In this document: positions 9,926 through 50,200 of the stretch, piece by piece
How the letters are laid out: every line of letters begins with the position of its first letter
How positions within the stretch are numbered: position 1 is the first letter of the stretch
DNA from: a virus
DNA length: 64,000 bases
Strand: one strand, 5' to 3'
Virus record (IMG/VR): IMGVR_UViG_3300022752_002570
Location: 1 to 64,000 of that record
Translations under genes and position numbers: made by a program
Notes under the pieces: model-generated
Seen by the model: the letters and a program-made list of their open reading frames with translations, nothing else
Told to the model about the DNA's origin: nothing
Databases searched by the model: none

Positions 9926-10098
9926 TGTTTAAGGTAGGCGATAAGGTTCAAAAGGTGTCAGGCTATCTATGGCCTGGCATTGTGGTAAGTGTATTTGATA
10001 CACTAGCAGGCGAACGAAGAGTAGTTGTAGAATGTACAGTACCTGAAATAAAGGGCGCACTGCACATTTACAATGAATCTCAATTGAAACTGCAATAA
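9925..10098 (+). CDS. Small unknown protein, 57 aa
   Basis: ATG at 9925 is embedded in TAATG with the preceding stop, and its own TAA at 10096-10098 is embedded in TAATG with the thyA start. This perfect coupling on both sides is strong evidence that it is translated. The product, starting MFKVGDKVQKVSGYLWPGIV, looks like a small SH3-like beta barrel (VGDKV, PGIVVSVF, RRVVVECT, LHIYNESQL). Function unknown. Confidence 0.75.
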   Translation: MFKVGDKVQKVSGYLWPGIVVSVFDTLAGERRVVVECTVPEIKGALHIYNESQLKLQ

Positions 10099-10979
10099 TG
10101 TCAGAGCGTTCTTATCTAAATTTACTAGAAACTATACTTGCCCAAGGTGAACAACGGGAAGATCGAACAGGTACAGGTACTCTCAGTATATTTGGTCCGC
10201 AACTTCAATTCGATCTTACTCAAGGATTTCCTGCAATAACTACCAAGAAACTGGCATGGAAATCTGTAGTAAGTGAACTCCTATGGTTTATTGAAGGCAG
10301 CAATGACGAAAATAGACTTAGGGAAATACTTCACGGTGAGAGGTATAGCGATAAAAAAACTATTTGGTCAGATAACGCTACTGCTCCTTACTGGACAAAT
10401 AAACGACTGGCACGACATCAAGGTGACTTAGGCAGAATTTACGGTGTACAGTGGCGCAAATGGCGCAAACCTCTAATTAGAATTAATAAAGTAGTACTTC
10501 AAAATCACGATCAGTTATTAGAATTAATTGAAGGAATTAAAAAAGATCCCTATGGTCGCAGGCACATTATAACAGCATGGAATCCAGGTGAATTAGAATT
10601 AATGGCATTACCTCCATGTCACATGATGTCACAATTTTATGTTTCCAAAGACGGTGGACTAAGTTGTCATATGTACCAGAGATCTGCGGATATGTTTTTG
10701 GGAGTGCCTTTCAACATTGCTTCTTATGCCTTGTTCACCCATATGATTGCACAGGTCTGTAATTTACATGCAAAACAGTTAATTATATCATTTGGTGATG
10801 CTCACGTATACTGCAATCATATAGATCAAGTTCGTGAACAACTGACAAGACAGACTCTAGCGATGCCAAGACTAGAACTAAACCCTTCTATTACAGACAT
10901 TAACAAATTTACAATGGAAGATGTTAGTCTTATTAATTATGAAAGTCATCCTGCCATTAAAGCAGATATGGCAGTTTAA
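10098..10979 (+). CDS. thyA: Thymidylate synthase
   Basis: A 293-residue ThyA/Td enzyme that methylates dUMP to dTMP with methylene-tetrahydrofolate. The N-terminal REDRTGTGTLSIFG loop, the KKLAWKSVVSELLWF segment, the catalytic Cys174 in ALPPCHMMSQFY, the QRSADMFLGVPFNIASYA dUMP-binding segment and the FGDAHVYCNHIDQVREQL C-terminal motif are all present. Length is slightly above the bacterial norm (264), as in many phage versions. No intron is present, unlike T4 td. It ends the rightward early block, overlapping the end of the leftward late block by four bases, with no obvious terminator between them. Confidence 0.95.
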   Translation: MSERSYLNLLETILAQGEQREDRTGTGTLSIFGPQLQFDLTQGFPAITTKKLAWKSVVSELLWFIEGSNDENRLREILHGERYSDKKTIWSDNATAPYWTNKRLARHQGDLGRIYGVQWRKWRKPLIRINKVVLQNHDQLLELIEGIKKDPYGRRHIITAWNPGELELMALPPCHMMSQFYVSKDGGLSCHMYQRSADMFLGVPFNIASYALFTHMIAQVCNLHAKQLIISFGDAHVYCNHIDQVREQLTRQTLAMPRLELNPSITDINKFTMEDVSLINYESHPAIKADMAV

Positions 10980-17605: not shown

Positions 17606-19201
17606 TTAGGCTTCCAGTTGAAGTAATACTAAAGAAACACTTACTGTGCTCGCACCTGAATGTTTATTCGTTACTTGAAGATAGACTGTGCTAGTAGTAG
17701 GTGCATCGTTATTAAATCCTACAACACCAGGAGTGATTAATTGCGTTAAAGATCCTGCTGTAGTTATTACCTCTGCAAGTATACCTGCTCCAGGGAGTGG
17801 ATCATTACCCTCTGCTCTAGTTAGATCATTAGATCTACTAGTACTATCTGAATAAATTCTTACCCAAGCAGGGACAGATGTGCTGACTTTTGATAATACA
17901 TATGATCTATATCCTACAACATGTGTGGTAGCACTAAACCCTACTGCTAGCGAATTAGTTACAGTCGTGGAGGTGGTCCTTAAGCCTAGGCTTGTTCCAC
18001 CTCCACCGCTGACAATTGTTGTCCAAGTTGAATCATAATTAGTATTACTTGCTTTGACTAGAGCCTGTCCGGTCGTGCCACCTTCTCTTATACCCGGACC
18101 TGTTGGCCCAGACGGTCCTTGAGGTCCAATAGCGCCTGTAGGGCCAATAGCGCCTGTAGGCCCTGTAATCCCTCCAGGCCCAGTTGGCCCAGTCGGCCCA
18201 GTTGGTCCAGTGGGGCCGCTTGGTCCTCCGCTTGGTCCAGTAGGTCCTTCTGGTCCTGTAGGTCCAGTTACACCAGGATCTCCTTGAAAGCCTCTAGGTC
18301 CTTGTGGTCCTTGTGGTCCCTTAGGTCCCTGCGGTCCGCTTGGTCCTCCGCTTGGTCCCGTTGGGCCTACAGGTCCCTGCGGTCCCTGCGGTCCCTCTGG
18401 ATCTCCTTTATCACCCGTTGGCTGAAAAATAAATGCTAAGTCTTGATTTAAACTTGGAAGAGCCCCACTAAGATACGTTACAGGAACCTCTAAATGATTA
18501 CTCTGATTAGTGACTGTTCCTATTACTTTAAAAATGTTTGTCGTAACTGTACTAGTACTTTGAGTATTGTTTATATATAATATACCCTTGCTAGAATCTG
18601 ATGTACTATCGTCCCAACTTAATACCCAATTTGTCTGATTATGCCCTAGAGCGTCAATTTTTGAAATTACTAAAATTGTTGCAGAGGTAATATTACCAGA
18701 ATTATATCTTACATTACCATTACCCGGATTTGATAAAGTAGTTAACACACTAAAATTATAGTAAACACCAGACCTCGGTCCACTTGGGCCTGTGATTCCT
18801 GTAGGACCGGTCGGGCCTTGTGGTCCAGAAGGTCCTTGCGGGCCTCCTGGTGGTCCTGTTATACCTGCTGGTCCGGTTGGTCCTGTTACGCCTACACCAG
18901 TTGGTCCTGTTATACCTGCTGGTCCGGTTGGGCCAGTTGGTCCACTAGGTCCTCCACTTGGACCTGTTGGTCCTAATGCGCCAGTTGGTCCTGTGACTCC
19001 TGCTGGTCCACTGGGACCGGTTGGTCCGCTTACACCTGTAGGACCCACCGTCCCTACATAGCCTAATCCTGCAACAGCACTAAGAATTTGGTTCTTAATC
19101 GTATTGTATGTTACTCTCCGTGTCAACTGATTATCCACAACTATAAAAGTTGTAGATGTAGTTGCTGTAGATAAAATATTCAGTTGTGCAACGTTAGGCA
19201 T
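17606..19201 (-). CDS. Collagen-like tail fibre protein
   Basis: A 531-residue protein with an N-terminal head ([20 protein letters not shown]; residues 1-50), a first Gly-x-y collagen block (about 53-145), a globular domain of ~115 residues, a second Gly-x-y block (about 262-370) and a C-terminal beta domain of ~160 residues. Gly-Pro-Thr, Gly-Pro-Ser and Gly-Pro-Gln triplets dominate. Phage collagen-like blocks form rigid triple-helical rods in trimeric fibres. The gene is flanked by the subtilase and the giant baseplate protein. The repeats could recombine and change rod length. Confidence 0.85.
18092..18418 (-). repeat. Second Gly-x-y repeat block of the collagen-like fibre
   Basis: DNA here is a 9-base-periodic series of triplet repeats (GGTCC/GGACC cores on the plus strand) encoding [11 protein letters not shown]-type tripeptides. 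It gives open frames on the opposite strand that are not genes. Copy-number variation between related phages would be expected. Confidence 0.8.
18767..19045 (-). repeat. First Gly-x-y repeat block of the collagen-like fibre
   Basis: Encodes about 93 residues of Gly-x-y triplets ([13 protein letters not shown] type). The repeat unit TTATACCTGCTGGTCCGGTT on the plus strand occurs twice nearly in full (around 18859-18885 and 18911-18935), showing internal duplication. Confidence 0.75.
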
Positions 19202-19204
19202 ACC

Positions 19205-22200
19205 TTATAATCCTTGTAATAAATCACCATCATCTTCTGTCAATGGGGCGTTAGTTTCATCTGTAAGTTCTAAATTGCCTCCATAGTAGTAAGAACTTGG
19301 TAACTGTGCAGGACCTTTACGTAAGAATTTGGCCTGTGTGCTTGTGCTTACTAGTATAGAAGCAGTTGAAATATCCCATACTCTGCCTTTACGTTGAATA
19401 ACAGTAATTTGAGTTCCTGGAACAATTTCTTCGCTAATATTTAACAATAATGTCTGGCTTGTGTCAACTTCAATGGTATATTCAGGCGGTAAAACATCGT
19501 AACTACTAGTTGTTTCATTATTGTAATATACGCTAGAGGTTGTATCATATGCTCGTTCATTATAGTGTAACTTAAGTTCTGTTTTTCTTAATTTTCTACC
19601 ACCATAATATACATCTACTTGATCTACATATGCAGGTACATACCCATGGGTACTTGTGGTTAATAGACTAATACCACTTCCTGCATGTGTTGTAGTGTTT
19701 ATACTAAATGAACTAGTATTGGTAACTGTGCTGATATTATACAACGTTAAGTATGTAGTTGGAATATTTTGAATGTTTACTGTCTCTTCTGTATAAACAT
19801 TCTGCTTAACACTTTGATCAAATACCAACGTGCCTTCTGCAGAATACCACGGAGTTCCAGTTCCAAAGGTTCCTCTCCTTAGTTGTGTTAGTTCATTACC
19901 GTTCTTAACAAAGTATTCAATTCTTTCACCGTCTATAAAGACTACACCCGGAATATTTTTGCTAGGATTGGGACTAAACAGCATACTTCCATCTTCAACA
20001 TGAATACTGTCATCATAATAGTTTAATGGATGTGCAAGTTTTGTACTAAAGAAATTTGAAACTCTCCTGAATGACTGTCTATCAAAAATATCCTTGAATA
20101 ACCTATAGGCAATAACAGTGTTATCATAATTTGCTGGATTAACTGAAACAATCACTACCTTTGAACCAGTAGTCATCGGAACATCATTACCTATGACAAT
20201 TGTTTGTAGATCTGGCTTTACATAAAAATCGTAGCCTGCAATCAATGCCTTATCATTTGCTGTAACCCAAATATAATTTTCATTTATAACAGGCATATCT
20301 AATGTATACTCATTATTGTGCGTACGATCAAATCTTTCTGTTCTTAGTCCCATTCCGTCATGATCTGTGAAACTTGTTACCTTAATAGCACCACTAGTAA
20401 CAGCATTTTTCAAATATAAAATTCTATTAATGATAACATAATCATAATCTGTTAGATCCATAATTGCAATGACATCATTAAAAGCAACTACATTTTGTAT
20501 TATTGTAATAGTCTCTGTGGCAGCATTTACAACAAAATCGAATCCAGGACGAATCTCGTATCCATTAACATACACCTTGACATTTTGGTTGTTATATGCA
20601 GCACCAGACTTGTTATTATTAATATCAAAGGTTAATTGATTACCTGTAATTTTATAATAACTGGTATCAGGAGGTAACAATCTTGTTCTAGGTGAATAAG
20701 GATTTCCTGTAAGTTTTTCAACTATGACCTGTGTACTGATAGGTTCTAAGTTGAAAGGAACAGGATCTAATGGTATGCTTACAGTTGATGTAGAAATATT
20801 GTAATAAGTTTCTTTAATTCTATTAAAGGTATCAATACGATTTCTAAAGAACCAAGCAGTAACTTCGTTCCTTCCGGCAGCAATTTCGTTTACAGTAATC
20901 TTAGCTCGTTTGTTTACATTGCCGACTGGTTCTAAAACATAGCCAAGTCCAGTTCCTACAGAATAAGGACCTATTTGCTGATTTCCATTTAATTGTACAA
21001 AAACACTTCCCACCCCGTTAAAGGGCATATCACTTATCAATGTAGCGGTTTGTGTAGAAGTTGAATTCACATAGACATATTGGCTATCTAATCCAGTATC
21101 TGAACTTGCCGTTACATATGAATATCCAATTCTACCGCCAACTGTCTGTGCTCCAATGGTAATTCTATTACCTTCTAGAAAATAAACCTGATTGTCTAAA
21201 TCAAAAGGTAATGGATAGTTGTCTACTCTGGAAAGTGGTTTACCGTTAAAAGTTACAATTAGTCCTGCCGGTATTTCATCAGTCACCAATTGAAGAGTAG
21301 CAGTTGTTTCCTGACCTGCGATGTTATAGATTACTCCATTAAACATTATAGGACTAATTCTTTCTGGCCTTGTATACACAGTGATAGACAAACTATCTTT
21401 AGTGTCGCCGGGAACAAATTCTTCAGGTGCATAACTTCTAAATGGATTGATTAAACCGTCTGGATTAAAAGACGCATTAATTTGAGTGCTCTCAGCAGAT
21501 ACTTTAATATTTGCTTCAACTGATTCTAAAGTGTTATTGCCATCTACAATAGTTTGCACCCAGTAATCTAAACCTACCTGATCTGCGTGTCTATACAAGT
21601 ATCTTAGATAATATCTGTCAATAGCGTCGGCATAGTTTGATGCAGTAGAACCAGGAACATTTGTGGTTAGTTTATAACCATAATATTGTCCAACTGGCTT
21701 AATCCAGCCCCCTCCTTGAACAATATTATCTGTAGCAGTTGTGCCCAATGCAGATGTTTTTATACCATTGGTATACTGTCCACCGTCTAAGTTTACAGTC
21801 AATTGGTCTGGACTTAAATTATATTTCCAAAAATCTATATCTGTGTTTCCAAGAATAGTTACCGTTGCTGTTGTACGAACACTAGGATTCAGACCTGAAA
21901 TATTAACTATTGCTCGTTGAACTGTTCCTGAACTAGATGCAATATACCAAGATGGAGATCCTGAACTAAACGAAACTGTGGCTGTGGCTATCTGTGAATA
22001 AAGAGCATATGTGAAAATTTGTAAAGTCGACGTACCTGTTGAACTCTGTACTACCTTGTCAAGCACAGATGTTATGCTTGAAATAGTTGATAAAATGCTG
22101 AGAACACGGGCTGTTGCAGGTGTGCTTAACTGTGTAGTTGTTGAACTCAGTACCTGTGTTGCTGTAGTATAGAACTTATTATTTGTTGTAGTTGAAACAA

Positions 22201-25200
22201 CATATTGTCCATTATACCCTCCTGTTATAATTCCATTTATTAACACAACATCGCCTACTTTAATATCACCTCTAAATTGTTTCTTAGTTGTAAATTCAAT
22301 TAAAGATCCTATTGAGGTATCAGTAGATAACACGGTTTTTAAATCGTATACAGGACTACTAATTGTAATTACGTTAGTAGAAGAATCAATTTCAGTAACA
22401 ATAGTCTCAGGTCTAATCTTAATTGTACTGGTATTTCCGATAATAATACTTTGACCAGTTGTTATACCTGTAGTGGTATTAACAGTAATTGTAGTTGCAG
22501 TTGTATCAATGTCCTGCAATAATTTAACAGTTACCAATTCACTTACAATATCATCCCAAGGTGCAGAGTCATATGTAGTAGTTCCCCAAGGAGCAGTTTG
22601 ATCAAACATCATACCTTCATAAGTTGTTAATGGATAATCTAAACCTGATACTAGATCTGTTAGATTATCTGCTAACATTCCCGGAGTAGGACTATAATAT
22701 TGTTCAATCCTGTCTACTGCATTGAACAATTTAATATTTTTCTTGTAAATAACTTTAAATGTTTGACCTGCTAATGGCACAGATTTAAGAAGTGTTAATC
22801 TTGTAAATTCCTTAGTATATAGACCTTCATAATCTTCTTTATAGTATTCTAGTTTATAATCTGTTGCAAATACAAGTTTACCATCTATAGTTGGCGTAAT
22901 TGTAGATTTATCGGGATTTGCCAACCATGTTAATACAAAACTATTTTGTTCACCTGTGCAATCAAACTTATCTGTAACATAGGTATCGGTGATTTCTACT
23001 CCCTTGCTTATACGATCAAATCGTAAACCTATCTTATTCTTACGAATTGTATCGTTGTCCATAACGACAGATAGAGCAGCGGGAATTACTCCTGCGCCGC
23101 CACCCGTTAATTGTGCCACAGGTGCGAATACATATCCAGATCCAGGATTAGTTACAATAACCTTGTAAACTTTTCCTGCCCTTATAAATGCTTCTGCGGT
23201 TGCCCCTGTACCATAATCACCGTTTACAGTTATTAATTCAACAACAGGTCTTTGAGTATAATTTTGTCCACCATCCGCTACAAGTATTTCCTTAACATAG
23301 TAAGTATAATTGTCTGTCCAATATTTCCAAGGATAAACATTTGTTAATGTGTTTGTCAATGTAAACACTGTGGCAGAAGTAGTACTTAATATAGTAATAG
23401 GTTTGTATTCGTTCAGTGTTTGATCATACACAGTAGGCAAGTCAAAATCAGTTATGTTTCCGTCATAAAATTCTATTGTGTTGTACTTAGAATTATAATT
23501 TCTAATTTTGGTATGATAAGGCTTAATTTCTTTTATATAATCTTCAAAATATTGTTCATTATCTAACTTGTAAACTGGTCGCTGGTCTAATACTCCAAGA
23601 TCAGTAACTACATTTACAAAAGAAGTTTTGAATGCCCAATCTAACAATTTTTGTTCTGTGAGAGCGTATCTCACAGCCACAAAAAATAACAAATTCCAAT
23701 TAACTTTAAGATCGCCAACAAAAAGATCATTTTTTAAGGCTGTTAAAATGTTACGTAATTCAATAGTATTTGATTGATCATATAAATTGTCTGCAAGTCC
23801 TGCTTCATCATAATTGTCAGCGGCCTCTGCATCGTTCCATACTTTATCTAATATTTTAATAGTACCATCTTGTACATAAACTGAATTGAAATACTTTGTG
23901 AAGTTTCCGTTGTCGCTTACCTTTTCAACAATTACGTATTTTCCGTTACCATTGTTATTAATTTTTATATAAGTTCCGTCAGTGGTATCGTTATATAAGG
24001 CAATGTCACTAGGAATACCTACAACATAGGAAAATATCTTATATTGATTGTAGTTACTAGCAGACCAATCTATATAATCCCAATAATCTTCTGTTCTAAA
24101 TTTTTGTGTAGAAACCTTAAACCAGGTTTCGGATGCATTGTTATATTCGTGAACAGTCCACCTGCCTCCGTCATCTGGGTTGCTGGTTAAAATTGCAGTA
24201 AATGGTCTCACTTCTAATAACGGAGCCGTAGCATATTCAGTTCCTGCGTTTGTGATATCCACACGAATTATCTTACCAGACTCGTCTAAAACAGAAACTA
24301 GTTCTGCACTTGTATTAGTATCTTTAATGGTTACTACTGGTGCAAATATATATCCCTTACCGCTATCAATAACATTTACATTATCTATCTTTCCATTATT
24401 GACTGTACATGAAATAACTGCCTGTCTAATATTGGATGTATCTATACTGTCTAACTCTAGAATAGAATCTATGAGAATGTCATATCTCCCTTCAGACTCT
24501 GAAGGAATTTCATCTTTAAGAAGAAGTGTATCTAGTTCATACTTGCCTACTATCTGTTCTTTGCTTAATACATCATTTGAGAATACAACTATATTTCTAA
24601 GGGCTTCTACTCTGTCCTTAAATAATGTCTGCTGCGGTCTGATTCCTAAACCGTATCTATTTCTAAAAGATAAAATAGGATCAGGAACAGGATTACCAGA
24701 AGTATCTTCTCCTAGTAAACTATCAAATAATTTCTTTTCTAATAAGGCATTAGGTACGCTATTTTGATTGCCTTCATTTAACAATAACCACTCTGTGTGC
24801 CTTGGAATAGGATTGTCATAGGTAAAGGACATGTTGGCACTTATTCTATTATCAACCAATAAAGGCTGTACATTTGTAAATGCCACAGAACTAGAACTTA
24901 ATACTTGAACAAATTTAACACCATTGGCCTGCGGATCTGCGATTAGATTAGCGACTTGATAAGAACTTAATCTTCTATTCTTAACATCTGGTAATAAAAG
25001 TTTATTCTTTACCCAGAAATAATAAACATTTTCAAAACTACCTGTAACAGCATTGAATATCTGCTTAACGCTTACTACATCGTTAGCAGGATACTTTGGT
25101 TGACCACTTATACCGTTTGAGGTACCCTGATTAGTATCTGCCTGTGCAGCCCAGGCACTTGGTAAGAGATCTGAACGCACCCATTCGTAGATATCTATAG

Positions 25201-28200
25201 TAGCACCAGGAAATAATTTGCCCCAATTATTCTTCCTAAAGATATCATCGCCTTGTTCATACCAAATGTACTTTAAGGTGCTGAGATCCCACCATAGTTC
25301 ACCAACATGATCATCTAGCCAATTATTTTTATCATCAACAATATTACCTGGTCTACCTATAGAGTAGATGGCAGGATCTGAAGGTGACTTATACTTGATT
25401 TCTTGCTCCGCCAATCCAGAAATTTTGCCCTTTAAAGGATCTATAAGTTCAAGATATTCAGATACTTCCTCTTTGTAAGAATCAATAAGTGCTATTCTTT
25501 CAATACTCGAAATGTCTACTAAATCAGGCTGTTGATGCTTAACTGTCAATATTTCAGGCATATCAAAAACAAATGCCATGCTATTATCTGTTCCTGTAGA
25601 CAATTTATTAAATGGTGCACCAACATAAGAATATTTGTTTGTTGAAACTACATCAAATCCATATTTGCTACCTTCTTGTATGGCAGTATCAACTATTTCA
25701 TTTCCAGGAACAAAATAAGTTCCTAGTCTTTGATAAGCATAAACTGTTCCAGAATCTGGAATTAGATCCTTGAACTTGGTAGTTCCGCCATCGAATGTAG
25801 TGATACCAGATTTTGAATTTTCATCAAATTTAATTTCAATTGATCTATTTGTGCCTAAACCGCTAATTAATAATTTTGTTTCTGCTTTGTTTAATGATAG
25901 GCTATGCCCAAATCTTAAATCACTTCCGGCTATAGGGTTGTCTATGGTCTGTAGCAACGAGTAACGTCTATTCGTTCCTAATTGATAGACCTTAACACTT
26001 CCATAACTTGTATCAAGATTTCTATAATCCGGAGCACTAACTACAAGATATTTTCCTGTATAAGAAATAATTTGATCTTTACCAAAATTACCACTTGTAC
26101 CGTAAGGACTAAAAATAGTTTGGTTGTGATATATTCCGTTATTGATAAATCTAAATATCTGTACCAAACCTGATGAATTTTCGTCTTTGTAACCGGGAGC
26201 ACTGACTGATATATAAGTTCCTGTACTATTACCGCTTACCTTGTAACCCCATTGATCTCCAACCTTTAGTGCTACGCTAGATGTTGATAAAACATTTAGG
26301 CCTGACGCAAAAGCACCAATTTGTAATCCATTATTTTTTCTAATTCTGTAGGCAAATACATTGCCTGTTGTACCTGTACTAATATTTGTGCTTGTTGAAG
26401 AAATCACACTTGCAGTAGACCCTGTACTCATAGCAAAGGTAACTGATGTTGGATATACATAAAGTTGGTTACCAACACCCTCTGTGCCCGGAGCACTTAC
26501 AATCAATAAGGTCGATGCACTAGTCGTTGCTTCATTAATATATATTGAATGGCCAAATCTTACTTTGTTAGATGAGGTTGAGTATTGTCCTAAAGGATTT
26601 GTTAGTACAGCTTCAACTACTTCTGCATCATTATAAGGCCCTATGCTACTGATCTTTACCAATCCTTCATCATCAAAAATTCTTGTAGCACTAGTAAAAG
26701 TTCCGGCGGTAGAATATACAGTGCTAGTAGTAACACCTACTGTCATATTCCATGTGACTTCTTCCGGGCTAGCAATAAAGGCATTAGACCCTACCGCCTC
26801 TCCAGAGGATGAGGTAACTGTAGCAGAATTGCTAACAAGTATGTCTATAGAAAAAGTTACATTAGTAGGTCTAAATTCTAAACTAGATAGTCCTTTGACA
26901 TTACTTGCTCTAGGTGCTCCTATAATTAGATAATTTTTACCAACATCATAGGCCATTGCATAACCAAATTCTGTAGGCTTAGCAGGATTGCAGTATTGAA
27001 TATCGTAGGTGTTTAATGTATACTCAAACAGTTTAGTGATACTTTGATCTATCCTGTCATAGACCTTGACCCTTCCATAACTCTGAGTAGCGGTTGTATT
27101 AAAATTAGGAACCGCTACTAGGAATTTGTCAGTGTTGTCTGCTGCCCATATTGTGTATCCTAACTCCTGTGCAGAAGGACTGTCAACAGACCTTATGTAC
27201 TCAACAGGAAATTGATTGCTTTTTTCATAGACTTGCCATCTATTGTCTATCCCGCTATCAACCCATATAAGTTCACCTTCATCGAGATCGAATAACTGTT
27301 TTTTATTTCGTAGATCACTAAGTCTTGTAAATCTAGCAGATTCAAAAACAAATAAATTTCCATAGGCAAGCTGCTCTTGATTTTGAATACTGGTTAAACT
27401 TGACTGAACTGTAAACTGACTTAATTGAGGGACAGATTCAACAATATAAACTCCATTTACCTGTTCATTGAAATTTACAATAGAAACAATATCACCCACT
27501 GATAGATTGTGATGTAAATTAGTACTAAATGTAATATTAGCACCAGGAGCACTTACATATACACCTGTTACTTTGGCTTTATTTTTAGAATATCTATAAA
27601 CAGACCAATCTCCATTTTCTAAAAATCCTGTCCATATAGTCGATCTATTTTGTATCTGATTGTTCTTTGCTATATCTAGCAGACTATTTTTATTATATGC
27701 TGTAGCAGTAACATCATCTAATCTTACATAACCTGCTGTTGAAAGAATTATTCCTGTTTCATTATAGGTTCCGCCGGGACTATTTGGAGAATCTAAAAAT
27801 GTCCCTCCAGGTACAATTGTAGACTCTGGAGTGATCACTGGAAATACATTACTTGATGAATAGTCTTGTGGAGTCAATAGTAAATCATTAGGTGTTACAT
27901 AGTTTTCCAATGGACCGACATCTGTAGGAACCTGATCAGCAAACTTAACAAGATATGGATTTTCTAAAGTAGTACCTTCTGGGAGAGTAAATTCTATTTC
28001 ATCATAGTTACTGAATCCACCGTAATATCCTGTTCTAAATGCCCATTCTTCTGTAAATGTAACTTCGCCCTTATTAAGATATCTACTGGCCTTTGATAAT
28101 TTGTCAATGGCATTTTTTGTGCCTTTGTCTTTAATGAATCCTTGATAGAATTTATATTGACTGATAGGGTTTGTGAAAATATTATTGAAGTATGTTCTTG

Positions 28201-31200
28201 GGGTATAACCGATAAGATGCTGTGCCAATTTTTGTTGTCCAGCGTCAAAGTTATCAATATCTAAACTGTAAAAGTCTTCAAACTGATTTATTTTATAATC
28301 AAAGTTAGGCAATAGATCAGGTACAGGTTTTTCGTTAAGTAAAGACCATTTCTTGAAATCAAAATTAGTGCTAGGCTCAATTCTTTTGTTTGCCTGATAA
28401 TACGAACCATTATATCTTACAATGTCCCCTATGGTATAATTCTTTAGCGAACTCCAATCAGTTATAATTAGATTATCATAAACGAATCCAGGACTGTAAA
28501 AATCTCCGTTCCAGTTTTTAGTTCTAAATCCTGAAAGTTTGACCCTTCGTTGTTTATATCCTGTTTCAATATCATATATAGTATCATTAAAAACAGTAGT
28601 ATTATTAAAAACTATAGCATGTTCTTTTTGTATAAGAACTAACTTAACAAAAAATATTCCTTCTTCGGTATTTTTTGTTTGTATTCTACAGGCACTGTCT
28701 TCTCTTATTAAACTAAAATTTTCAATAGGGAATGACTTGCCGTCGGCTTTTAATAAGTTGTATGCGAACCGTCCTGTCTTAACATCATCAACTATGCTGT
28801 TATCGTAAAAATACTTGAACGCATTTGCAAAGGGACTCAGTGTAATGATATTTCCGTCAGCCCAGTTTTGTGTACACCAAAATAAAAATTCTTTAGCACT
28901 GTATTTCCAGTCTATATTTTGTTCTAAGTCTGTAGAATAATCATCAAAAATAAAACCTTCTTGCTCTAAAAATTTTCCGTAGCCGGTAATAATATCATAA
29001 ACCTCTTGTATTGTAGGAATTTCAGAACCATAAAAGTATCTAGTTGTTGTAGGGCTAAACTTTCTAGAAGTTTGAACAGTGACACCGCCTTTTAATGGCA
29101 AAGTAGTCAATGAATACCATAAAGATGAATCAAAAGTACTTCCCGGATTATGACCAACTTTAGATCTATAAAATCTATTATTGTATCTAACTATTTGACC
29201 TTCTCTATAAAATCTAGTTGTAGGCGATGCATTTGCTGTAGATGTTTCAGATGCGGTTAATTTTAAATTTTTATTTTGAGTAATACCAGACCATTCTGTA
29301 AAATCTTCACTTATTCCACCAACTGTTAGCGCAGGAGAAGTCGCTTCTTTAAAAGGTAACAGTACATCAAAATAAGGCTTTTCTAAATCATAACCCTTTA
29401 AAACAAATTTGCCATTTTGTTTCTGAATTATCATACCTGATGCAGAAGCAATTTTTACAGGATTACTTACATTGAGAAATACATTGTAATCTTCATAAGG
29501 TACAACTAGTCCCGGACTTGTTGAAACTGGATCAACTGAATCAATATTAATCTGTAGTTTTTCTTTACTGGTAAATCCACCCAGTTTGTAAAATAGGTTG
29601 TAATCTAGATTATCTAAATCTTGTCGCAAACTTTGTAGATAATTTTGATTTTTTAATTTTCCTGCTTCTATAACCATTATACTATAACCAGAACTTTGAT
29701 TATTATTTTCTCCGTCTAAAATAATTTTACGTGGATCTAAATATAAATCATCTTCTGTGTAAGTTACTTGATTTTTTATGTTTAAAGCAATCCTACTCGT
29801 ATCAAATAATGCACTTAGATAATCTGCAGGATTTAATAATAGACTTATAATATTGACAGCGTATGGCCAGTAACTACTATTCTTCCATGCTGTTTCAGAA
29901 GGTGCGCCGTCTCCGTAGATCCATCCTAATATTTTAACATTGTCTGCATTGTTTGAAACTACTGCTAGAGGTCCTACTAAATTTCCAGAACTATCAACAG
30001 GATTAATTGAAGCAAAATTAGGTCTTGCGTATCTTATATTGTATTCATCAGATTCGGTTGGATCAGAAACTTTGCCTTGAACTATAGCGTCAATTAAATC
30101 TGCTCTTTTAACATTATCTACCCACTCATAATGAGTATCCCACCAGTTAGGTTTTATTGCAAATCCCAACATCTCCCAAGGATGACTATGTGGTCTATCA
30201 GTATCAAAGAAATAATTGTAAATTCCTCTCCAATAGGACGGAACTTCCTCAGCAAATATCTTGTCAACAGACTGAGTATAATTATAGGTAAATTCATTAC
30301 CGTAATCAAATGCTGTATTAGTTTTTATATCTACATTGTTGATACCAGCCCAAAAACTAAAATCTACATTAACAATATCTTGTGAAGGTCTAAATAAACT
30401 TCTATTCCTAAATGCTCCAGGAATACCTGCTCTAACATCATAAATGTTAGGTTGGTACTGAACTTTAATATTATTGTAGATTCTTTTCTCAAATTCTAAA
30501 ATAATATCGTCTCTGTAGTCACCATAGGCAACTAACAAACTTCCATCGTGTCCTCTTATTAAATCTACATTTTGATCTATGTAAGTGTCGTCTGTAAATA
30601 TTTCTGGCTCGTACTTAGGATACAGTCCTAATTTTGTAGGAGTCGGCGGAACAAAACACCCTAAGGTGTTTGAATATACAAGTATTTCAATTTCATCATT
30701 TACAGATAAAGACAAATTAAAAGAAACTTCATCGATATTAATAAAATAATCTGTATCATAAATTAATTGATCACCATTTAAGTAAACTAATACTGATTTA
30801 AAAGATAACGCTGATAAACTAAAATCTATACCAATTGGATAATCCGTAACAGCAGGATTAGTTACAGTATAATTTTTAACAGTCTTATTATCTCCATAAC
30901 CTAGCATATCTGATCTATAATATGCAGAATTAAAATCTTTAGTTAAATTAATTTCTTTTAAAATTTGATCAACAGCCTCAGCATGTGTTATGTCAGCACT
31001 AACAAAAAGTAGTTTTCTTAAAAAGTTGTCTTTAAATTGTAGATAACTATTTCCCACTTTTCTTAATGCATCAACTACATTATGTTCTGATTTTCCTAAG
31101 AAAATAGATGCAAACGACAATGGGTTACTGTTAACAATAATACGTGTACCATATTTTGTATAACCTACAACATCTCTCAAATTAGTGCCATCATAGTTAA

Positions 31201-33163
31201 CATCGGTAATGTCATCTAACATGGTAGTAAGATGATCTCTTAATTCGGATAATGTAAAATCTTTTACAGGGCCATTAAGAGGATTATTAACCATACTTAA
31301 AGGAATTTCATAATATCCGTTTAAATTAGGCTCTTGGTCTGTAAAGATCTTAATTGCCACTGTATCATTTGCATCTAACTGATTATCTAAAGTTACAGAT
31401 GACGCGGTAGAAGAGGCAGTAAACGCACTTCTTAATAGTTGATCATTTTTATAAACTGCTATTGACGTAATAGATGCTGCCTCTATTGGAACATCTAAAG
31501 ACTTTATATAAAGAGTACTGGTTGTTTCAGATACAGTTTGTATTTCAACTATTGGCAAATGATATTCAGTTTCTTGTTGCCATACATTGAATAATTCACT
31601 TGTTTCATAATTTTTTAAATAAGTGTTAGCAACAAGTTTAGTAGAACTCTGATTATTTTCTTTAATGTTGAAAGAATCTGTCATAAAATAATTTTTAAAT
31701 AGAAAACTTCCTATGCCCGAACTATTTTGATATTTTAAAGGAAATCCTAGCACAGTATCACTGGCACCTATACCCACGTCATAGCCAAATAATCTTGTGC
31801 CTAAAAAATTAGACTGATATGTTGCAGTATTTGAATAACTTACGCCATCATTATCAAATACATCAAAAAGTGGAAACTGATTTATTGTTGTGTGCTGTTG
31901 TGCTAGTTTCCACGAATCAGATTCTGTATCAAAATACCAACTTGTACCTCCATAGGTATTTCCAAAATTAATTGACACACCTACACTGCTAGTTGTTAAA
32001 GATGTAACTGTAGTTAAAATTATTGTAGATGTTGTTCCTGTCGTATAAGAAACTTGAAAAATTTTATTTTTATTATCAGGATCAGTATTAAAAATTAATC
32101 TATTTCCTGCTTGTATCAATGTTCCGTCAATATAATATCCATAAGAACCATTTACAGTTGCAAACGCATCAGCAGTATTATTATCAATTAAATCTACATT
32201 TTCTAAACCTACTGTACCGTGATTGTACAATTTAAGATTGGGTCTGAATTCTACAATAGGTCTTTTTGCACGTTGGTTAAAATCAAACAATACTGGTGTT
32301 TGATTAATTCCTGCTGTTTTTTCAATAATGTCTTTATGAAACCACCTATTATATCTGGTCCATGAATTATAATCTTTGCTGGCTCTATTAATAGTAATGT
32401 ATTCAGGTACCAATGGTAAACGTTTTCCACCGTCAAAAGGATATTCATCTAATCCATCTGAATCAAATGTCTCGTTGTATACATCTGCTAAGCCTTCATT
32501 ATTTTCTAAATATCTTATGTCAATTAACCTTATACTGTCACCAACTCCCTCAACATAATAAGTATTTTCTCTATAGGTGCTAGGAGTTACCTGAGTACCA
32601 AATACTAATTTCATACCATTTGATAAAGTGTAATTTATTAAATTTCCTTCACCATCAGTATACTGATATGGTAAGGAGTAGGTTGGATTTCCTACGATTT
32701 CAGCATCAACATCTATGCCTAATTCATCAATTACAATAGAATCTGGTCCTTGGGGCAACCAATAATAATCAAAATAATTTACAAGTTTATCCCAATCTAT
32801 ATAAGGATCGTAAGAATAAAACTTAGACCTCATCAATTTATCTAAATTATCTGTATTAGATTGATAAGATTTTAATTCATTTAATAAATCATCAAAGGCA
32901 ATAATATCTGTTATTTCACCAGAAATATTTTTAAGTGTTAGTGCAGGTTCTAAAGAATAATTCTTTTTTGAGCCTTGAGATTCATCAATATAAACATCAA
33001 TGGTAGGATCGTAATTTGGCGTTAACTTTGATCCTACGAATCCGTCTATTCTTTCTACTTCAGGAGTTTGAATAAGATGATCTAATGTACTGGCTAAAAA
33101 TTTTTTATTTTTTTCAGTCTTTAGATATTCGGGTAAAAAATTAACTGATTTCTTTTTAGCCAC
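19205..33163 (-). CDS. Giant baseplate/fibre virion protein, 4652 aa
   Basis: A single open frame of almost 14 kb, lying where T4 has gene 7 (directly downstream of gp6). The N-terminus (VNFLPEYLKTEKNKKFLAST) has no signal peptide. By eye I see: two short modules like chitin-binding CBM5/12 (GQIVRYNNRFYRSKVGHNPG, ~1311-1351; GDIVRYNGSYYQANK, ~1569-1611); a probable FG-GAP-like beta-propeller at ~1990-2535 with recurrent FGHS/YGFDV and LIVSAPG/YVGAPF motifs; GxGYxxxPxV repeats at ~2914-2988 and ~3291-3358; and a DUF4214-like segment (LRYLYRHADQVGLDYWV, ~3841-3888). Most likely a baseplate wedge protein carrying adhesive appendages. The gp7 relation is inferred from synteny only. Confidence 0.8.
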   Translation of the reverse strand: MAKKKSVNFLPEYLKTEKNKKFLASTLDHLIQTPEVERIDGFVGSKLTPNYDPTIDVYIDESQGSKKNYSLEPALTLKNISGEITDIIAFDDLLNELKSYQSNTDNLDKLMRSKFYSYDPYIDWDKLVNYFDYYWLPQGPDSIVIDELGIDVDAEIVGNPTYSLPYQYTDGEGNLINYTLSNGMKLVFGTQVTPSTYRENTYYVEGVGDSIRLIDIRYLENNEGLADVYNETFDSDGLDEYPFDGGKRLPLVPEYITINRASKDYNSWTRYNRWFHKDIIEKTAGINQTPVLFDFNQRAKRPIVEFRPNLKLYNHGTVGLENVDLIDNNTADAFATVNGSYGYYIDGTLIQAGNRLIFNTDPDNKNKIFQVSYTTGTTSTIILTTVTSLTTSSVGVSINFGNTYGGTSWYFDTESDSWKLAQQHTTINQFPLFDVFDNDGVSYSNTATYQSNFLGTRLFGYDVGIGASDTVLGFPLKYQNSSGIGSFLFKNYFMTDSFNIKENNQSSTKLVANTYLKNYETSELFNVWQQETEYHLPIVEIQTVSETTSTLYIKSLDVPIEAASITSIAVYKNDQLLRSAFTASSTASSVTLDNQLDANDTVAIKIFTDQEPNLNGYYEIPLSMVNNPLNGPVKDFTLSELRDHLTTMLDDITDVNYDGTNLRDVVGYTKYGTRIIVNSNPLSFASIFLGKSEHNVVDALRKVGNSYLQFKDNFLRKLLFVSADITHAEAVDQILKEINLTKDFNSAYYRSDMLGYGDNKTVKNYTVTNPAVTDYPIGIDFSLSALSFKSVLVYLNGDQLIYDTDYFINIDEVSFNLSLSVNDEIEILVYSNTLGCFVPPTPTKLGLYPKYEPEIFTDDTYIDQNVDLIRGHDGSLLVAYGDYRDDIILEFEKRIYNNIKVQYQPNIYDVRAGIPGAFRNRSLFRPSQDIVNVDFSFWAGINNVDIKTNTAFDYGNEFTYNYTQSVDKIFAEEVPSYWRGIYNYFFDTDRPHSHPWEMLGFAIKPNWWDTHYEWVDNVKRADLIDAIVQGKVSDPTESDEYNIRYARPNFASINPVDSSGNLVGPLAVVSNNADNVKILGWIYGDGAPSETAWKNSSYWPYAVNIISLLLNPADYLSALFDTSRIALNIKNQVTYTEDDLYLDPRKIILDGENNNQSSGYSIMVIEAGKLKNQNYLQSLRQDLDNLDYNLFYKLGGFTSKEKLQINIDSVDPVSTSPGLVVPYEDYNVFLNVSNPVKIASASGMIIQKQNGKFVLKGYDLEKPYFDVLLPFKEATSPALTVGGISEDFTEWSGITQNKNLKLTASETSTANASPTTRFYREGQIVRYNNRFYRSKVGHNPGSTFDSSLWYSLTTLPLKGGVTVQTSRKFSPTTTRYFYGSEIPTIQEVYDIITGYGKFLEQEGFIFDDYSTDLEQNIDWKYSAKEFLFWCTQNWADGNIITLSPFANAFKYFYDNSIVDDVKTGRFAYNLLKADGKSFPIENFSLIREDSACRIQTKNTEEGIFFVKLVLIQKEHAIVFNNTTVFNDTIYDIETGYKQRRVKLSGFRTKNWNGDFYSPGFVYDNLIITDWSSLKNYTIGDIVRYNGSYYQANKRIEPSTNFDFKKWSLLNEKPVPDLLPNFDYKINQFEDFYSLDIDNFDAGQQKLAQHLIGYTPRTYFNNIFTNPISQYKFYQGFIKDKGTKNAIDKLSKASRYLNKGEVTFTEEWAFRTGYYGGFSNYDEIEFTLPEGTTLENPYLVKFADQVPTDVGPLENYVTPNDLLLTPQDYSSSNVFPVITPESTIVPGGTFLDSPNSPGGTYNETGIILSTAGYVRLDDVTATAYNKNSLLDIAKNNQIQNRSTIWTGFLENGDWSVYRYSKNKAKVTGVYVSAPGANITFSTNLHHNLSVGDIVSIVNFNEQVNGVYIVESVPQLSQFTVQSSLTSIQNQEQLAYGNLFVFESARFTRLSDLRNKKQLFDLDEGELIWVDSGIDNRWQVYEKSNQFPVEYIRSVDSPSAQELGYTIWAADNTDKFLVAVPNFNTTATQSYGRVKVYDRIDQSITKLFEYTLNTYDIQYCNPAKPTEFGYAMAYDVGKNYLIIGAPRASNVKGLSSLEFRPTNVTFSIDILVSNSATVTSSSGEAVGSNAFIASPEEVTWNMTVGVTTSTVYSTAGTFTSATRIFDDEGLVKISSIGPYNDAEVVEAVLTNPLGQYSTSSNKVRFGHSIYINEATTSASTLLIVSAPGTEGVGNQLYVYPTSVTFAMSTGSTASVISSTSTNISTGTTGNVFAYRIRKNNGLQIGAFASGLNVLSTSSVALKVGDQWGYKVSGNSTGTYISVSAPGYKDENSSGLVQIFRFINNGIYHNQTIFSPYGTSGNFGKDQIISYTGKYLVVSAPDYRNLDTSYGSVKVYQLGTNRRYSLLQTIDNPIAGSDLRFGHSLSLNKAETKLLISGLGTNRSIEIKFDENSKSGITTFDGGTTKFKDLIPDSGTVYAYQRLGTYFVPGNEIVDTAIQEGSKYGFDVVSTNKYSYVGAPFNKLSTGTDNSMAFVFDMPEILTVKHQQPDLVDISSIERIALIDSYKEEVSEYLELIDPLKGKISGLAEQEIKYKSPSDPAIYSIGRPGNIVDDKNNWLDDHVGELWWDLSTLKYIWYEQGDDIFRKNNWGKLFPGATIDIYEWVRSDLLPSAWAAQADTNQGTSNGISGQPKYPANDVVSVKQIFNAVTGSFENVYYFWVKNKLLLPDVKNRRLSSYQVANLIADPQANGVKFVQVLSSSSVAFTNVQPLLVDNRISANMSFTYDNPIPRHTEWLLLNEGNQNSVPNALLEKKLFDSLLGEDTSGNPVPDPILSFRNRYGLGIRPQQTLFKDRVEALRNIVVFSNDVLSKEQIVGKYELDTLLLKDEIPSESEGRYDILIDSILELDSIDTSNIRQAVISCTVNNGKIDNVNVIDSGKGYIFAPVVTIKDTNTSAELVSVLDESGKIIRVDITNAGTEYATAPLLEVRPFTAILTSNPDDGGRWTVHEYNNASETWFKVSTQKFRTEDYWDYIDWSASNYNQYKIFSYVVGIPSDIALYNDTTDGTYIKINNNGNGKYVIVEKVSDNGNFTKYFNSVYVQDGTIKILDKVWNDAEAADNYDEAGLADNLYDQSNTIELRNILTALKNDLFVGDLKVNWNLLFFVAVRYALTEQKLLDWAFKTSFVNVVTDLGVLDQRPVYKLDNEQYFEDYIKEIKPYHTKIRNYNSKYNTIEFYDGNITDFDLPTVYDQTLNEYKPITILSTTSATVFTLTNTLTNVYPWKYWTDNYTYYVKEILVADGGQNYTQRPVVELITVNGDYGTGATAEAFIRAGKVYKVIVTNPGSGYVFAPVAQLTGGGAGVIPAALSVVMDNDTIRKNKIGLRFDRISKGVEITDTYVTDKFDCTGEQNSFVLTWLANPDKSTITPTIDGKLVFATDYKLEYYKEDYEGLYTKEFTRLTLLKSVPLAGQTFKVIYKKNIKLFNAVDRIEQYYSPTPGMLADNLTDLVSGLDYPLTTYEGMMFDQTAPWGTTTYDSAPWDDIVSELVTVKLLQDIDTTATTITVNTTTGITTGQSIIIGNTSTIKIRPETIVTEIDSSTNVITISSPVYDLKTVLSTDTSIGSLIEFTTKKQFRGDIKVGDVVLINGIITGGYNGQYVVSTTTNNKFYTTATQVLSSTTTQLSTPATARVLSILSTISSITSVLDKVVQSSTGTSTLQIFTYALYSQIATATVSFSSGSPSWYIASSSGTVQRAIVNISGLNPSVRTTATVTILGNTDIDFWKYNLSPDQLTVNLDGGQYTNGIKTSALGTTATDNIVQGGGWIKPVGQYYGYKLTTNVPGSTASNYADAIDRYYLRYLYRHADQVGLDYWVQTIVDGNNTLESVEANIKVSAESTQINASFNPDGLINPFRSYAPEEFVPGDTKDSLSITVYTRPERISPIMFNGVIYNIAGQETTATLQLVTDEIPAGLIVTFNGKPLSRVDNYPLPFDLDNQVYFLEGNRITIGAQTVGGRIGYSYVTASSDTGLDSQYVYVNSTSTQTATLISDMPFNGVGSVFVQLNGNQQIGPYSVGTGLGYVLEPVGNVNKRAKITVNEIAAGRNEVTAWFFRNRIDTFNRIKETYYNISTSTVSIPLDPVPFNLEPISTQVIVEKLTGNPYSPRTRLLPPDTSYYKITGNQLTFDINNNKSGAAYNNQNVKVYVNGYEIRPGFDFVVNAATETITIIQNVVAFNDVIAIMDLTDYDYVIINRILYLKNAVTSGAIKVTSFTDHDGMGLRTERFDRTHNNEYTLDMPVINENYIWVTANDKALIAGYDFYVKPDLQTIVIGNDVPMTTGSKVVIVSVNPANYDNTVIAYRLFKDIFDRQSFRRVSNFFSTKLAHPLNYYDDSIHVEDGSMLFSPNPSKNIPGVVFIDGERIEYFVKNGNELTQLRRGTFGTGTPWYSAEGTLVFDQSVKQNVYTEETVNIQNIPTTYLTLYNISTVTNTSSFSINTTTHAGSGISLLTTSTHGYVPAYVDQVDVYYGGRKLRKTELKLHYNERAYDTTSSVYYNNETTSSYDVLPPEYTIEVDTSQTLLLNISEEIVPGTQITVIQRKGRVWDISTASILVSTSTQAKFLRKGPAQLPSSYYYGGNLELTDETNAPLTEDDGDLLQGL

Positions 33164-47752: not shown

Positions 47753-48047
47753 AGAATTAGAAAAATACAATGAAATGTATCGCAAAATGATTGATCATTT
47801 AGTGACATTGCATAATGCAAATATTACTTTCCAAAAGTTTCAAGGTAGAGATCGTGCTAACGATGTTAAACGACAGTTTAGAGGCATTATGAAATTAAGT
47901 CGCGAATTGATAAAGCAATGCAGCAAAGTCAGTCGAGAGGGTTCTGATCGAAGAAAACTTATAAGTACTCAAAGGAAAGAAGCCAAACGACTAAGGCAAC
48001 AACAAAGACAAAAAAATGTGGCTGTATCAGGGGGAAACAATCAATGA
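47742..48047 (+). CDS. Basic coiled-coil protein of unknown function
   Basis: A 101-residue protein starting inside gp46 and ending inside the following GIY-YIG gene. It is almost entirely helical: MLTEELEKYNEMYRKMIDHL, then FQKFQGRDRANDVKRQFRGI, and a very basic C-terminus (RKEAKRLRQQQRQKN). The charge pattern suggests DNA or RNA binding, or an adaptor of the gp46/47 complex, but this is inference from neighbourhood. I recall similar proteins in T4-like aquatic phages. Confidence 0.7.
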   Translation: MLTEELEKYNEMYRKMIDHLVTLHNANITFQKFQGRDRANDVKRQFRGIMKLSRELIKQCSKVSREGSDRRKLISTQRKEAKRLRQQQRQKNVAVSGGNNQ

Positions 48048-48447
48048 ACTACCAGAAACTTGCGTAGGATTCGTGTATATTATAACTAATACAGTAACAG
48101 GCAAGATGTACATAGGCAAAAAACTTAGTAAATTTTCAAAAACAACTTATAAAACTGTTAAATTAAAAAACGGCACTAAGAAAAAGAAACGAATTAAATC
48201 TAAAATATCCTCAGACTGGCAGACATATTACGGCTCAAACGATCATCTCAATCAAGACGTACTAAATTTAGGCACAGATAAATTTGTAAGAGAAATATTA
48301 TACTTTTGTAATTCAAAGGCAGAATGTTCCTATATTGAGGCACGTGAACAATTTACTCGCAAAGTACTAGAATCAGACGAATACTATAACGGACAGATAT
48401 CTGTTCGTGTCCATGGCTCACACATCAAAGGCAAACTAAACGGTTAA
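48016..48447 (+). CDS. GIY-YIG-type nuclease-domain protein
   Basis: A 143-residue protein with GFVYIITNTVTGKMYIGKK (18-36), i.e. the GIY and YIG strands (here VYI and YIG), then a basic linker (KLKNGTKKKKRIKSK), WQTYYGSNDHL and a Glu-containing helix (CSYIEAREQF). This fits a minimal GIY-YIG endonuclease. It could be a structural part of phage DNA metabolism or a degenerate homing endonuclease; absence of a DNA-binding extension favours the first. It overlaps the preceding gene by 32 bases and is followed immediately by the structured non-coding region. Confidence 0.75.
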   Translation: MWLYQGETINELPETCVGFVYIITNTVTGKMYIGKKLSKFSKTTYKTVKLKNGTKKKKRIKSKISSDWQTYYGSNDHLNQDVLNLGTDKFVREILYFCNSKAECSYIEAREQFTRKVLESDEYYNGQISVRVHGSHIKGKLNG

Positions 48448-48860
48448 CGGCTAGCGCAGGCTAATATCATGCGCCCTAGACCTGGATCTCAGATCGCAGG
48501 GACGGAATGCTCACCGCCGTAGTGAGAACTCAACCACTACCCGAAAGGATGACGATCACTTAACTGCTGTGATTTGGTTGTTTGAAGTAGAAGGAGCAAA
48601 AAGACGCAGAAGTGATTCTGCACGTTCATATGATGAGGTAGTGTTCGTTATATGAGCCGCCGTTGTAATAAAGCCTGAACGAGTAGGTACCGGACAACCG
48701 CCTACGCTAAACTAGTTCTAACACTATGTGACTATGCTACTCAGATGATGCATACCTTTGCCCGCCCTGGGCAAAGAGTGACCACTTAATCTAGATGATA
48801 CTAAAAGACAAAAAATGCTTCGAGTCTCGTAGACGAAGAAGCAAACGAACGTAGTTCGTT
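48448..48860 (+). ncRNA. Candidate large structured non-coding RNA
   Basis: The only gap above 300 bases in the window. No frame is open for long on either strand. Hand counting gives ~46% GC over 48481-48840 against ~35% in the preceding 180 coding bases. Stable helices occur throughout: 48451-48479; CTCAC/GTGAG 48510-48526; CAACCA/TGGTTG (48531-48580) enclosing ATCAC/GTGAT; GCAGAA-GTGA-TTCTGC 48606-48621, a GNRA tetraloop; 8 bp at 48624-48657; GTAGG..CGG-ACAA-CCG..CCTAC 48683-48705; TATGC/GCATA 48733-48754; CTTTGCCC/GGGCAAAG 48756-48776; 48816-48843; AACGAAC/GTTCGTT 48844-48860. GTTGT at 48662 could pair with the ACAAC loop at 48694 as a pseudoknot. Strand is inferred from neighbours. No tRNA, tmRNA, RNase P or group I intron core is recognisable. 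Confidence 0.65.
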
Positions 48861-48871
48861 ACTAAATATTG

Positions 48872-48887
48872 ATTATTCCGGAATAAT
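48872..48887. promoter_or_regulatory. 16-base palindrome before the internal-protein gene
   Basis: ATTATTCCGGAATAAT is a perfect dyad ending three bases before the ATG at 48890. The only ribosome-site-like bases (GGA) lie inside it. CTAAATAT at 48862-48869 may be a late-promoter variant. The dyad could be an operator or an RNA hairpin sequestering the translation start. Confidence 0.45.
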
Positions 48888-48889
48888 TT

Positions 48890-50200
48890 ATGCGATTACA
48901 TCAAGCACTAGGTCAACAGACTATCTTTGAAAGTATAGGAGGAACTGATCCCTACTTCAAAACATGGCAACGAGACATACATCCCGTATTATGTGAAGTT
49001 GCTCTAAACCCTGATCAGATAAATCAATTATTCAAATCTATAGAGAAGGGTGGAGGAAGATCTCTTCTAGGTAAAGCCAAAGATGCTATAAGTGGTGCTA
49101 CAAATAAAATTAGTGATGTATGGTTTAATAAGTTTGGAGGAATGTTGCAGAGCAGTGGACCTGTTCAAGCATTTGATCAAAAATTTGAAGAAATTAAATC
49201 CAGTATTGCAGCGAAGAATCCTAAATTGGCCGCAAAGTTAGCCAAATATGGAGAGTTTGCTAAGAACAATCCTAAATTACATAAGTTTTTATTAGCCATT
49301 GGAGGATCTGTAGCCGCTGCTGTAGGTGTTACTGTTGCGGGTGGAGTAGGCGCAGGTGCTCTAGCAGTGGGCACAGGTGCCGGTGTTGCTACTGGTATCA
49401 TTAACATTGCTGATCGTTTATTACAAGGGCAAAAAGCATCAACTGCTATTGGACGTGGAGCCACTACAGGACTAGTAACAGGAATAACTGCTGCTGCCGC
49501 TACTAAAATTCTTAGTGGTGTGGCCAACAGTTTTAAGGCAGAATATGTTAATACAGTTCGAGGTGAGCGATTAATGAACGGAACATTTGACATCAATGGT
49601 CAGTGGACTTTTGTTACTGGCAGACCGGAAGATGTTAGGGCTCTCGGACAAGCCATGGATGCAGAAAACTATCAGTTATTCTACAGTCTTGTAGAAAAAA
49701 TGAGGTCACCTGAATATGTAAAAGGTTTAGAAGCATCTCAAGAAATTATAAAACAGGCCACTCAAAACTATCAATCCACGGCAGGTGTAATTAAAACTCT
49801 AGCACAGGCTGCAACAGCAGCCGCAGGTGGTGCAGCCAGTGCGGCTACAAATCAACAACCTAAAGAAAGTTTATCAGAAAATAAAATTTATGAATTATTT
49901 GGCATAACCGGTAACAAGATAGATGCTAGTAAATTAGAAAAGGCATGGAAGAAGGCAGGAAGTCCTACGGACAGTGATGAGATTGCGAAAATCTTACAGG
50001 GTGCTGGTGTGGATCCTACAATTATTTCACAGGCATTTAAGGAAATAGGAGCACCTACACCTCAAGGCCGTGTAGAACCAACACTAGGAACAGACACCAA
50101 TACAACAGCCCAGCCAATAAATACAAAAGATATTGTAGCCAGGATAAAAAAATTACCTCCTGATCAACAAAAAATCTTAATACAACTATTAAAAGCATAG
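48890..50200 (+). CDS. Candidate internal (capsid-packaged) virion protein, 436 aa
   Basis: The N-terminus MRLHQALGQQTIFE is followed by SIGG; I-F-E fits the (I/L)-x-E cleavage rule of the prohead protease gp21, and the length (14 residues) fits the capsid-targeting peptides of T4 internal proteins. A Gly/Ala-rich hydrophobic stretch at residues 133-172 (KFLLAIGGSVAAAVGVTVAG) and a second at 185-207 could insert into membranes. The C-terminal part is helical and ends in KKLPPDQQKILIQLLKA. The gene follows the structured non-coding region and precedes a second protein of similar N-terminus. Proposed role, by inference: packaged protein ejected with DNA. Confidence 0.55.
   Translation: MRLHQALGQQTIFESIGGTDPYFKTWQRDIHPVLCEVALNPDQINQLFKSIEKGGGRSLLGKAKDAISGATNKISDVWFNKFGGMLQSSGPVQAFDQKFEEIKSSIAAKNPKLAAKLAKYGEFAKNNPKLHKFLLAIGGSVAAAVGVTVAGGVGAGALAVGTGAGVATGIINIADRLLQGQKASTAIGRGATTGLVTGITAAAATKILSGVANSFKAEYVNTVRGERLMNGTFDINGQWTFVTGRPEDVRALGQAMDAENYQLFYSLVEKMRSPEYVKGLEASQEIIKQATQNYQSTAGVIKTLAQAATAAAGGAASAATNQQPKESLSENKIYELFGITGNKIDASKLEKAWKKAGSPTDSDEIAKILQGAGVDPTIISQAFKEIGAPTPQGRVEPTLGTDTNTTAQPINTKDIVARIKKLPPDQQKILIQLLKA

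Follow-up and report, generated by a model that had tools for sequence, protein, structure and literature searches.

A phage and bacterial RNA that extends the Rfam family Polynucleobacter-1 to three times its length

Introduction

The locus described here raises the question of what fills the largest gap between the genes of a 64-kb stretch of viral DNA (IMG/VR record IMGVR_UViG_3300022752_002570, positions 1 to 64,000; hereafter, the window). The gap, at 48448-48889, measures 442 nt, compared with 172-225 nt for the runner-up gaps that lack an open reading frame (ORF) of at least 60 aa, and an original prediction had proposed that it holds a large, ornate, structured and new phage RNA. The comparisons reported below make it almost certain that 48449-48866 on the + strand (the 3' end is approximate) is a structured non-coding RNA that is real at its full length. 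It is the full-length form of an RNA whose 5' third is the Rfam family RF01718, and it is common to freshwater T4-like phages and to integrative elements of freshwater bacteria. RNA-level selection extends over its full length, and it displays a pseudoknot, an exchange of the 5' domain at one slot, and two matched 7-nt sites. In other words, a short curated RNA family covers just the beginning of a larger, modular RNA that abundant freshwater viruses share with mobile elements of bacteria.

The gap and its Rfam front end

The size of the gap and its contrast in composition were as predicted, the GC content being 46.7% at 48448-48860 against 34.6% in the 2 kb before it. In folding, the check that had been proposed, the + strand outperformed dinucleotide shuffles (z = -3.16, 0/100), with a weaker effect on the - strand (z = -1.66, 5/100); the segment beyond the Rfam model, folded separately, gave z = -4.01 (0/200). 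The possibility that the gap encodes a protein was rejected because no reading frame is conserved among the relatives, in which the longest stop-free run has a median of 70.5 aa, versus 66.5 aa in shuffled sequence.

Using cmscan, RF01718 (Polynucleobacter-1) was found to match 48449-48583 with 117.9 bits (gathering cut-off, 37), covering positions 1-141 of the 141 in the model, and no other Rfam family appeared in the region below E = 1. The proposed searches for GOLLD and ROOL were thus negative in Rfam; group I and II introns, HEARO and tmRNA had neither an Rfam nor an ARAGORN match, and the 64 kb contain no tRNA or tmRNA. The novelty that had been claimed therefore holds for the 3' two thirds, which have no Rfam match but show conservation and covariation in relatives, and not for the first 135 nt, which are the only previously known part of the RNA.

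Weinberg et al. (2010; PMC2864571) listed Polynucleobacter-1 among the probable RNAs, with a probable role in cis regulation, and gave Burkholderiales and fresh water or estuary as its sources; our literature search returned no other paper using the name or the accession. The freshwater and Burkholderiales setting and the complete coverage of the model agree with the family. The differences are that the conserved covarying unit in phages is ~420 nt, three times the ~141 nt of the complete RF01718 unit, with a pseudoknot domain, matched repeats and terminal hairpins lying outside Rfam, and that the main text of PMC2864571 mentions neither an association with phages nor a free-standing role. The longer unit is an extension of the family rather than a reason for exclusion from it, and a model corrected accordingly would uncover many further copies.

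Covariation over the full length

Full-length homologues were found at a minimum of 215 viral loci, at least 142 of them non-redundant; locus counts that come from pattern scans are lower bounds throughout. With a 17-mer that lies in the central part of the RNA and not in the Rfam model, at least 115 viral loci were retrieved, and 112 of these 115 contained the RNA, mostly at full length. Likewise, loci that had been collected through the GIY-YIG protein encoded upstream or through a 15-mer aligned with a profile built on the complete gap, in most cases over query positions 2-425. It should be noted that bases within the search patterns appear over-conserved, although position 48696, discussed below, is unconstrained in the 17-mer.

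The 142 relatives, which share less than 94% identity, were aligned by sequence alone, and covariation was scored with a G-test to which the average-product correction was applied; 20 alignments simulated along the tree served as the null (own script, resolution 0.05). Thirty-two pairs were significant at E<=0.05, 26 of them Watson-Crick, and they lie both within and past the Rfam domain. An independent count on 29 sequences gave 89.2% of cells paired, versus 76.9 +/- 0.5% after shuffling and 38-43% when the partners were slid; double-change cells numbered 246 against 69 +/- 7.5, and 45 of the 74 pairs had changes on both sides. Compensatory changes, a folding energy better than that of shuffled sequence and the lack of a shared coding frame are thus the outcomes on the three points by which the original prediction had said it could be refuted.

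All helices are on the + strand. In the Rfam domain, P1 (48454-58/48470-74) covaries significantly and is paired in 138-142 of the 142 relatives, P2 (48482-48499) exchanges TA (74) for CG (51) at 48487/48493, and P3 (48508-48527) contains two significant pairs. P4 (48531-48580; three significant pairs, 139-140/142 paired) closes a multiloop with P5 (48539-48550) and P6 (48554-48574; two significant pairs), and the occurrence of UG, UA and CG at 48556/48572 is of interest as the G-U forms fit the + strand. A strict C/U swap is seen at 48540/48550 (CT 64, TC 78, mixed 0), a rule that fits a predicted 4-bp hairpin P5 always containing exactly one A-C wobble.

Past the Rfam domain, the GTGA-loop hairpin P7, of the GNRA type (48606-48621), has a significant pair at 48607/48620 and variable inner pairs, and P8 (48627-48654) has significant pairs at 48632/48649 and 48636/48645. 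P10 (48677-80/48715-18; three significant pairs, 142/142 paired) surrounds P11 (48684-87/48701-04), where 48685/48703 is AT in 104 and TA in 38 relatives. The loop of P11 holds the 3' strand of the pseudoknot between GTTGT (48662-66) and ACAAC (48694-98), which had been offered as an option and which is supported by covariation: its pairs are retained in 131-142 of the 142 relatives, and the significant pair 48664/48696, which exchanges T-A (102) for C-G (39), crosses both 48677-79/48716-18 in P10 and 48685/48703 in P11. Further downstream follow the 8-bp hairpin P12 (48756-48776; 94% of cells paired in the 29 sequences), P14 (48817-48842; significant pairs 48820/48839 and 48821/48838), which has a GAGC..AGCGA-like core in relatives and recurs in the bacterial copies and in the second RNA class described below, and the 7-bp terminal hairpin P15 (48844-48860; six significant pairs). 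The hairpins named beforehand (P4, P7, P12 and P15) are thus all present. A repeated genome element was considered for the GAACGTAGTTC hairpin and rejected, since this sequence has a single exact occurrence.

Genomic setting and the shared 3' module

Immediately upstream of the RNA, at 48016-48447 (+), lies a SegE-like GIY-YIG gene (PF19835, E 8.6e-32), which is present upstream at 120/120 phage loci of this RNA class (class 1) and is at most 60 nt away in 110. GIY-YIG enzymes are homing endonucleases, and this linkage would suit a self-splicing or mobile intron-like RNA spread by its neighbor. However, the RNA is intergenic and interrupts no gene, it matches no group I or II intron, and GIY-YIG genes without the RNA occur in other contigs and in cultured phages, so that we regard an intron-like RNA as very improbable. 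In a separate observation, other T4-like contigs (L010:2404, L011:3423, L023:3423 and similar ones) have a conserved membrane-protein-like ORF directly after the GIY-YIG gene and no RNA.

Bacterial copies, which had escaped the original prediction, bear on the same point. Of 151 genomes of one genus, 27 contain the RNA, as do 2 of 399 genomes phylum-wide, both of the latter also being in the genus set, and the chromosomal hosts are apparently Polynucleobacter. These copies are usually flanked by a DUF6641 gene on one side and by a gene for a short tyrosine recombinase of 188-190 aa on the other, and none of 28 bacterial loci has a GIY-YIG match. This speaks against the intron-like reading, and it also differs from the constant adjacency of nuclease gene and RNA that an RNA-guided GIY-YIG nuclease would entail (120/120 in phages versus 0/28 in bacteria). 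The bacterial loci (L566-L569, L574-L594) have a conserved mobile-element core consisting of the divergent DUF6641 gene, the RNA and the short tyrosine recombinase gene; the copy in L567 adjoins EH_Signature and SNF2-Mrr genes that resemble a Zorya defence system.

On the downstream side, the next gene of the window begins 24 nt past the RNA, an arrangement that, together with the probable cis-regulatory role listed in PMC2864571, would be expected of a riboswitch-like leader of that gene. However, the first downstream ORFs at class 1 loci (91 in number) fall into 35 clusters, a diversity that speaks against a leader or riboswitch; placement before a conserved gene, the guess of the 2010 authors and not a criterion of the model, was accordingly not observed. 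In bacteria, the tyrosine recombinase gene is hundreds of bases downstream, and no expression platform was recognised. A leader therefore seems unlikely, and from these comparisons the RNA is quite probably trans-acting.

Other phages have a second RNA class in the same slot (for instance, L067:1448-1916, L076:3428-3892 and L081:3517-3986, with ~120 further loci as a lower bound), with GIY-YIG upstream at 62 of 72 loci. Class 2, represented by at least 72 non-redundant copies and supported by seven Watson-Crick pairs, has no Rfam match and a different 5' part, and it ends in the same 3' module. A model of this module trained on class 1 finds every class 2 locus tested, and it recovers six of seven bacterial loci at E<=0.006 and the seventh at 0.18, in line with the presence of the module in the bacterial copies; the 5' domains of the latter are of at least three kinds, RF01718 being one of them. 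This sharing points to one function served by interchangeable front ends, and such swapping of 5' domains on a constant 3' module is both unusual and directly testable. The same model matched none of four cultured phages, neither RNA class had a nucleotide match among named phages, the genome scan with the 17-mer gave chance matches only, and one search of plasmids for the RNA gave no match.

Two matched 7-nt sites

The 3' module contains two 7-nt sites, here called X, at 48743-48749 (after ACTC) and 48793-48799 (after AATCT), ~50 nt apart and separated by P12, that also went unnoticed in the original prediction. The two copies are identical in 142/142 relatives, and their sequence varies among lineages. 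This does not depend on the alignment, as the 7-mers following CTC and [TC]CT are identical in all 142, in ten variants, compared with 1/710 in a shuffled control. Three of the significant pairs that are not Watson-Crick carry the same base in both columns, with no mixed cases, at 48743/48793 (AA 65, GG 77), 48747/48797 (AA 80, GG 62) and 48749/48799 (AA 23, GG 6, TT 113). By parsimony these pairs changed 29, 10 and 12 times, and each change fell on one and the same branch for the two copies. Identity stops at the edge of X: the three preceding bases are always opposite, CUC versus UCU (identity 0.00, against 1.00 for X). In class 2, the copies are identical in 90/91.

The co-change of the two copies is unexplained by ordinary base pairing; that two 7-nt sites match so strictly while not being complementary is unusual and directly testable. 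Base pairing between the first copy of X and the ATCT that precedes the second was considered; it is possible in 138-142 of 142 class 1 relatives and is broken in class 2 and in bacteria, so it is not the general rule. No third copy of X or its reverse complement stood clearly above permuted controls within the RNA or within 3 kb of it in phages. In bacterial loci, direct copies number 19, compared with 11.6 +/- 2.9, and some of them are a conserved AGCGAAACC within the RNA itself.

A possible function for the RNA

We propose that a free-standing RNA acts during infection and that it is built from exchangeable 5' domains joined to a common 3' module (A-CUC-X7, hairpin, A-UCU-X7, P14, P15). Both X7 copies would dock to the same partner, which might be another copy of the RNA, one protein, or a nucleic acid, and selection would hold the sameness of the copies and not their sequence. 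Judged from sequence comparison, we would give this reading as a whole, i.e. a full-length, trans-acting, modular RNA with twin X sites for one partner, an even chance of being right; twin docking on its own is a more tentative suggestion. Three observations weigh against the proposal: the copies of X are identical in only ~19 of 24 bacterial loci, so that identity is not absolute; the tight linkage to the GIY-YIG gene in phages may indicate that the RNA works in connection with this gene; and we saw no clear promoter or U-rich terminator for the RNA. A late promoter CTAAATA after P15 was rejected, as the motif is under chance frequency in the window and is not conserved in the alignment of relatives.

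The identity of the X copies could instead originate from a copying or jumping step, such as template switching, slippage or recombination at short identical sites. Such a step would account for sameness alone being conserved between flanks as different as CUC and UCU, and the chromosomal copies adjoin a tyrosine recombinase gene. However, the 82-kb viral record contains no match to a reverse transcriptase or tyrosine recombinase, an integrase having likewise been sought there and rejected, and no relative was seen in which the segment between the copies is deleted. We consider this origin unlikely and place it second to docking, which is our first choice because same-sequence contacts are known in large RNAs: some quaternary contacts of ROOL form between identical sequences on separate chains, and OLE dimerizes through A-A pairs (PMC12286853).

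These contacts, and the large, ornate, phage-borne form, would also be compatible with a cage-forming RNA of the GOLLD or ROOL kind, a resemblance that the original prediction had drawn. Like those RNAs, the one studied here is without known function. Nevertheless, it is shorter, differs in sequence and architecture and matches neither covariance model, and the window has no tRNA, whereas a tRNA island is frequently found close to ROOL and GOLLD. Past size and complexity, nothing ties it to them, and membership in this group is improbable.

IS110-type bridge RNAs are linked to DNA-mobility enzymes and have two sites that share sequence, and the RNA studied here is similar in both respects. The differences are that there is no IS110 transposase, the neighbors being GIY-YIG in phages or a tyrosine recombinase in bacteria, and that no clear target site was found for X, the phage search covering the RNA and up to 3 kb around it. 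A bispecific guide unrelated to the IS110 bridge RNA might be imagined, in which the RNA would be the nucleic-acid partner of DNA-mobility enzymes (the GIY-YIG nuclease in phages and, on chromosomes, the short tyrosine recombinase, which is approximately a catalytic domain only) and the X sites would act as a pair of guides to two DNA sites whose crossover sequences have to match; we rate this a long shot.

Neighboring genes in the window

The ORF downstream of the RNA (48890-50200, +; 436 aa) has no PHROG match and is not a conserved neighbor. By eye, the structural region contains a 4652-aa ORF at 19205-33163 (-) and a collagen-like ORF with GPTGPTG repeats at 17606-19201 (-), and the ORFs at 2633-3490 and 10098-10979 resemble QueE (7-deazaguanine synthesis) and the thymidylate synthase ThyA, respectively.
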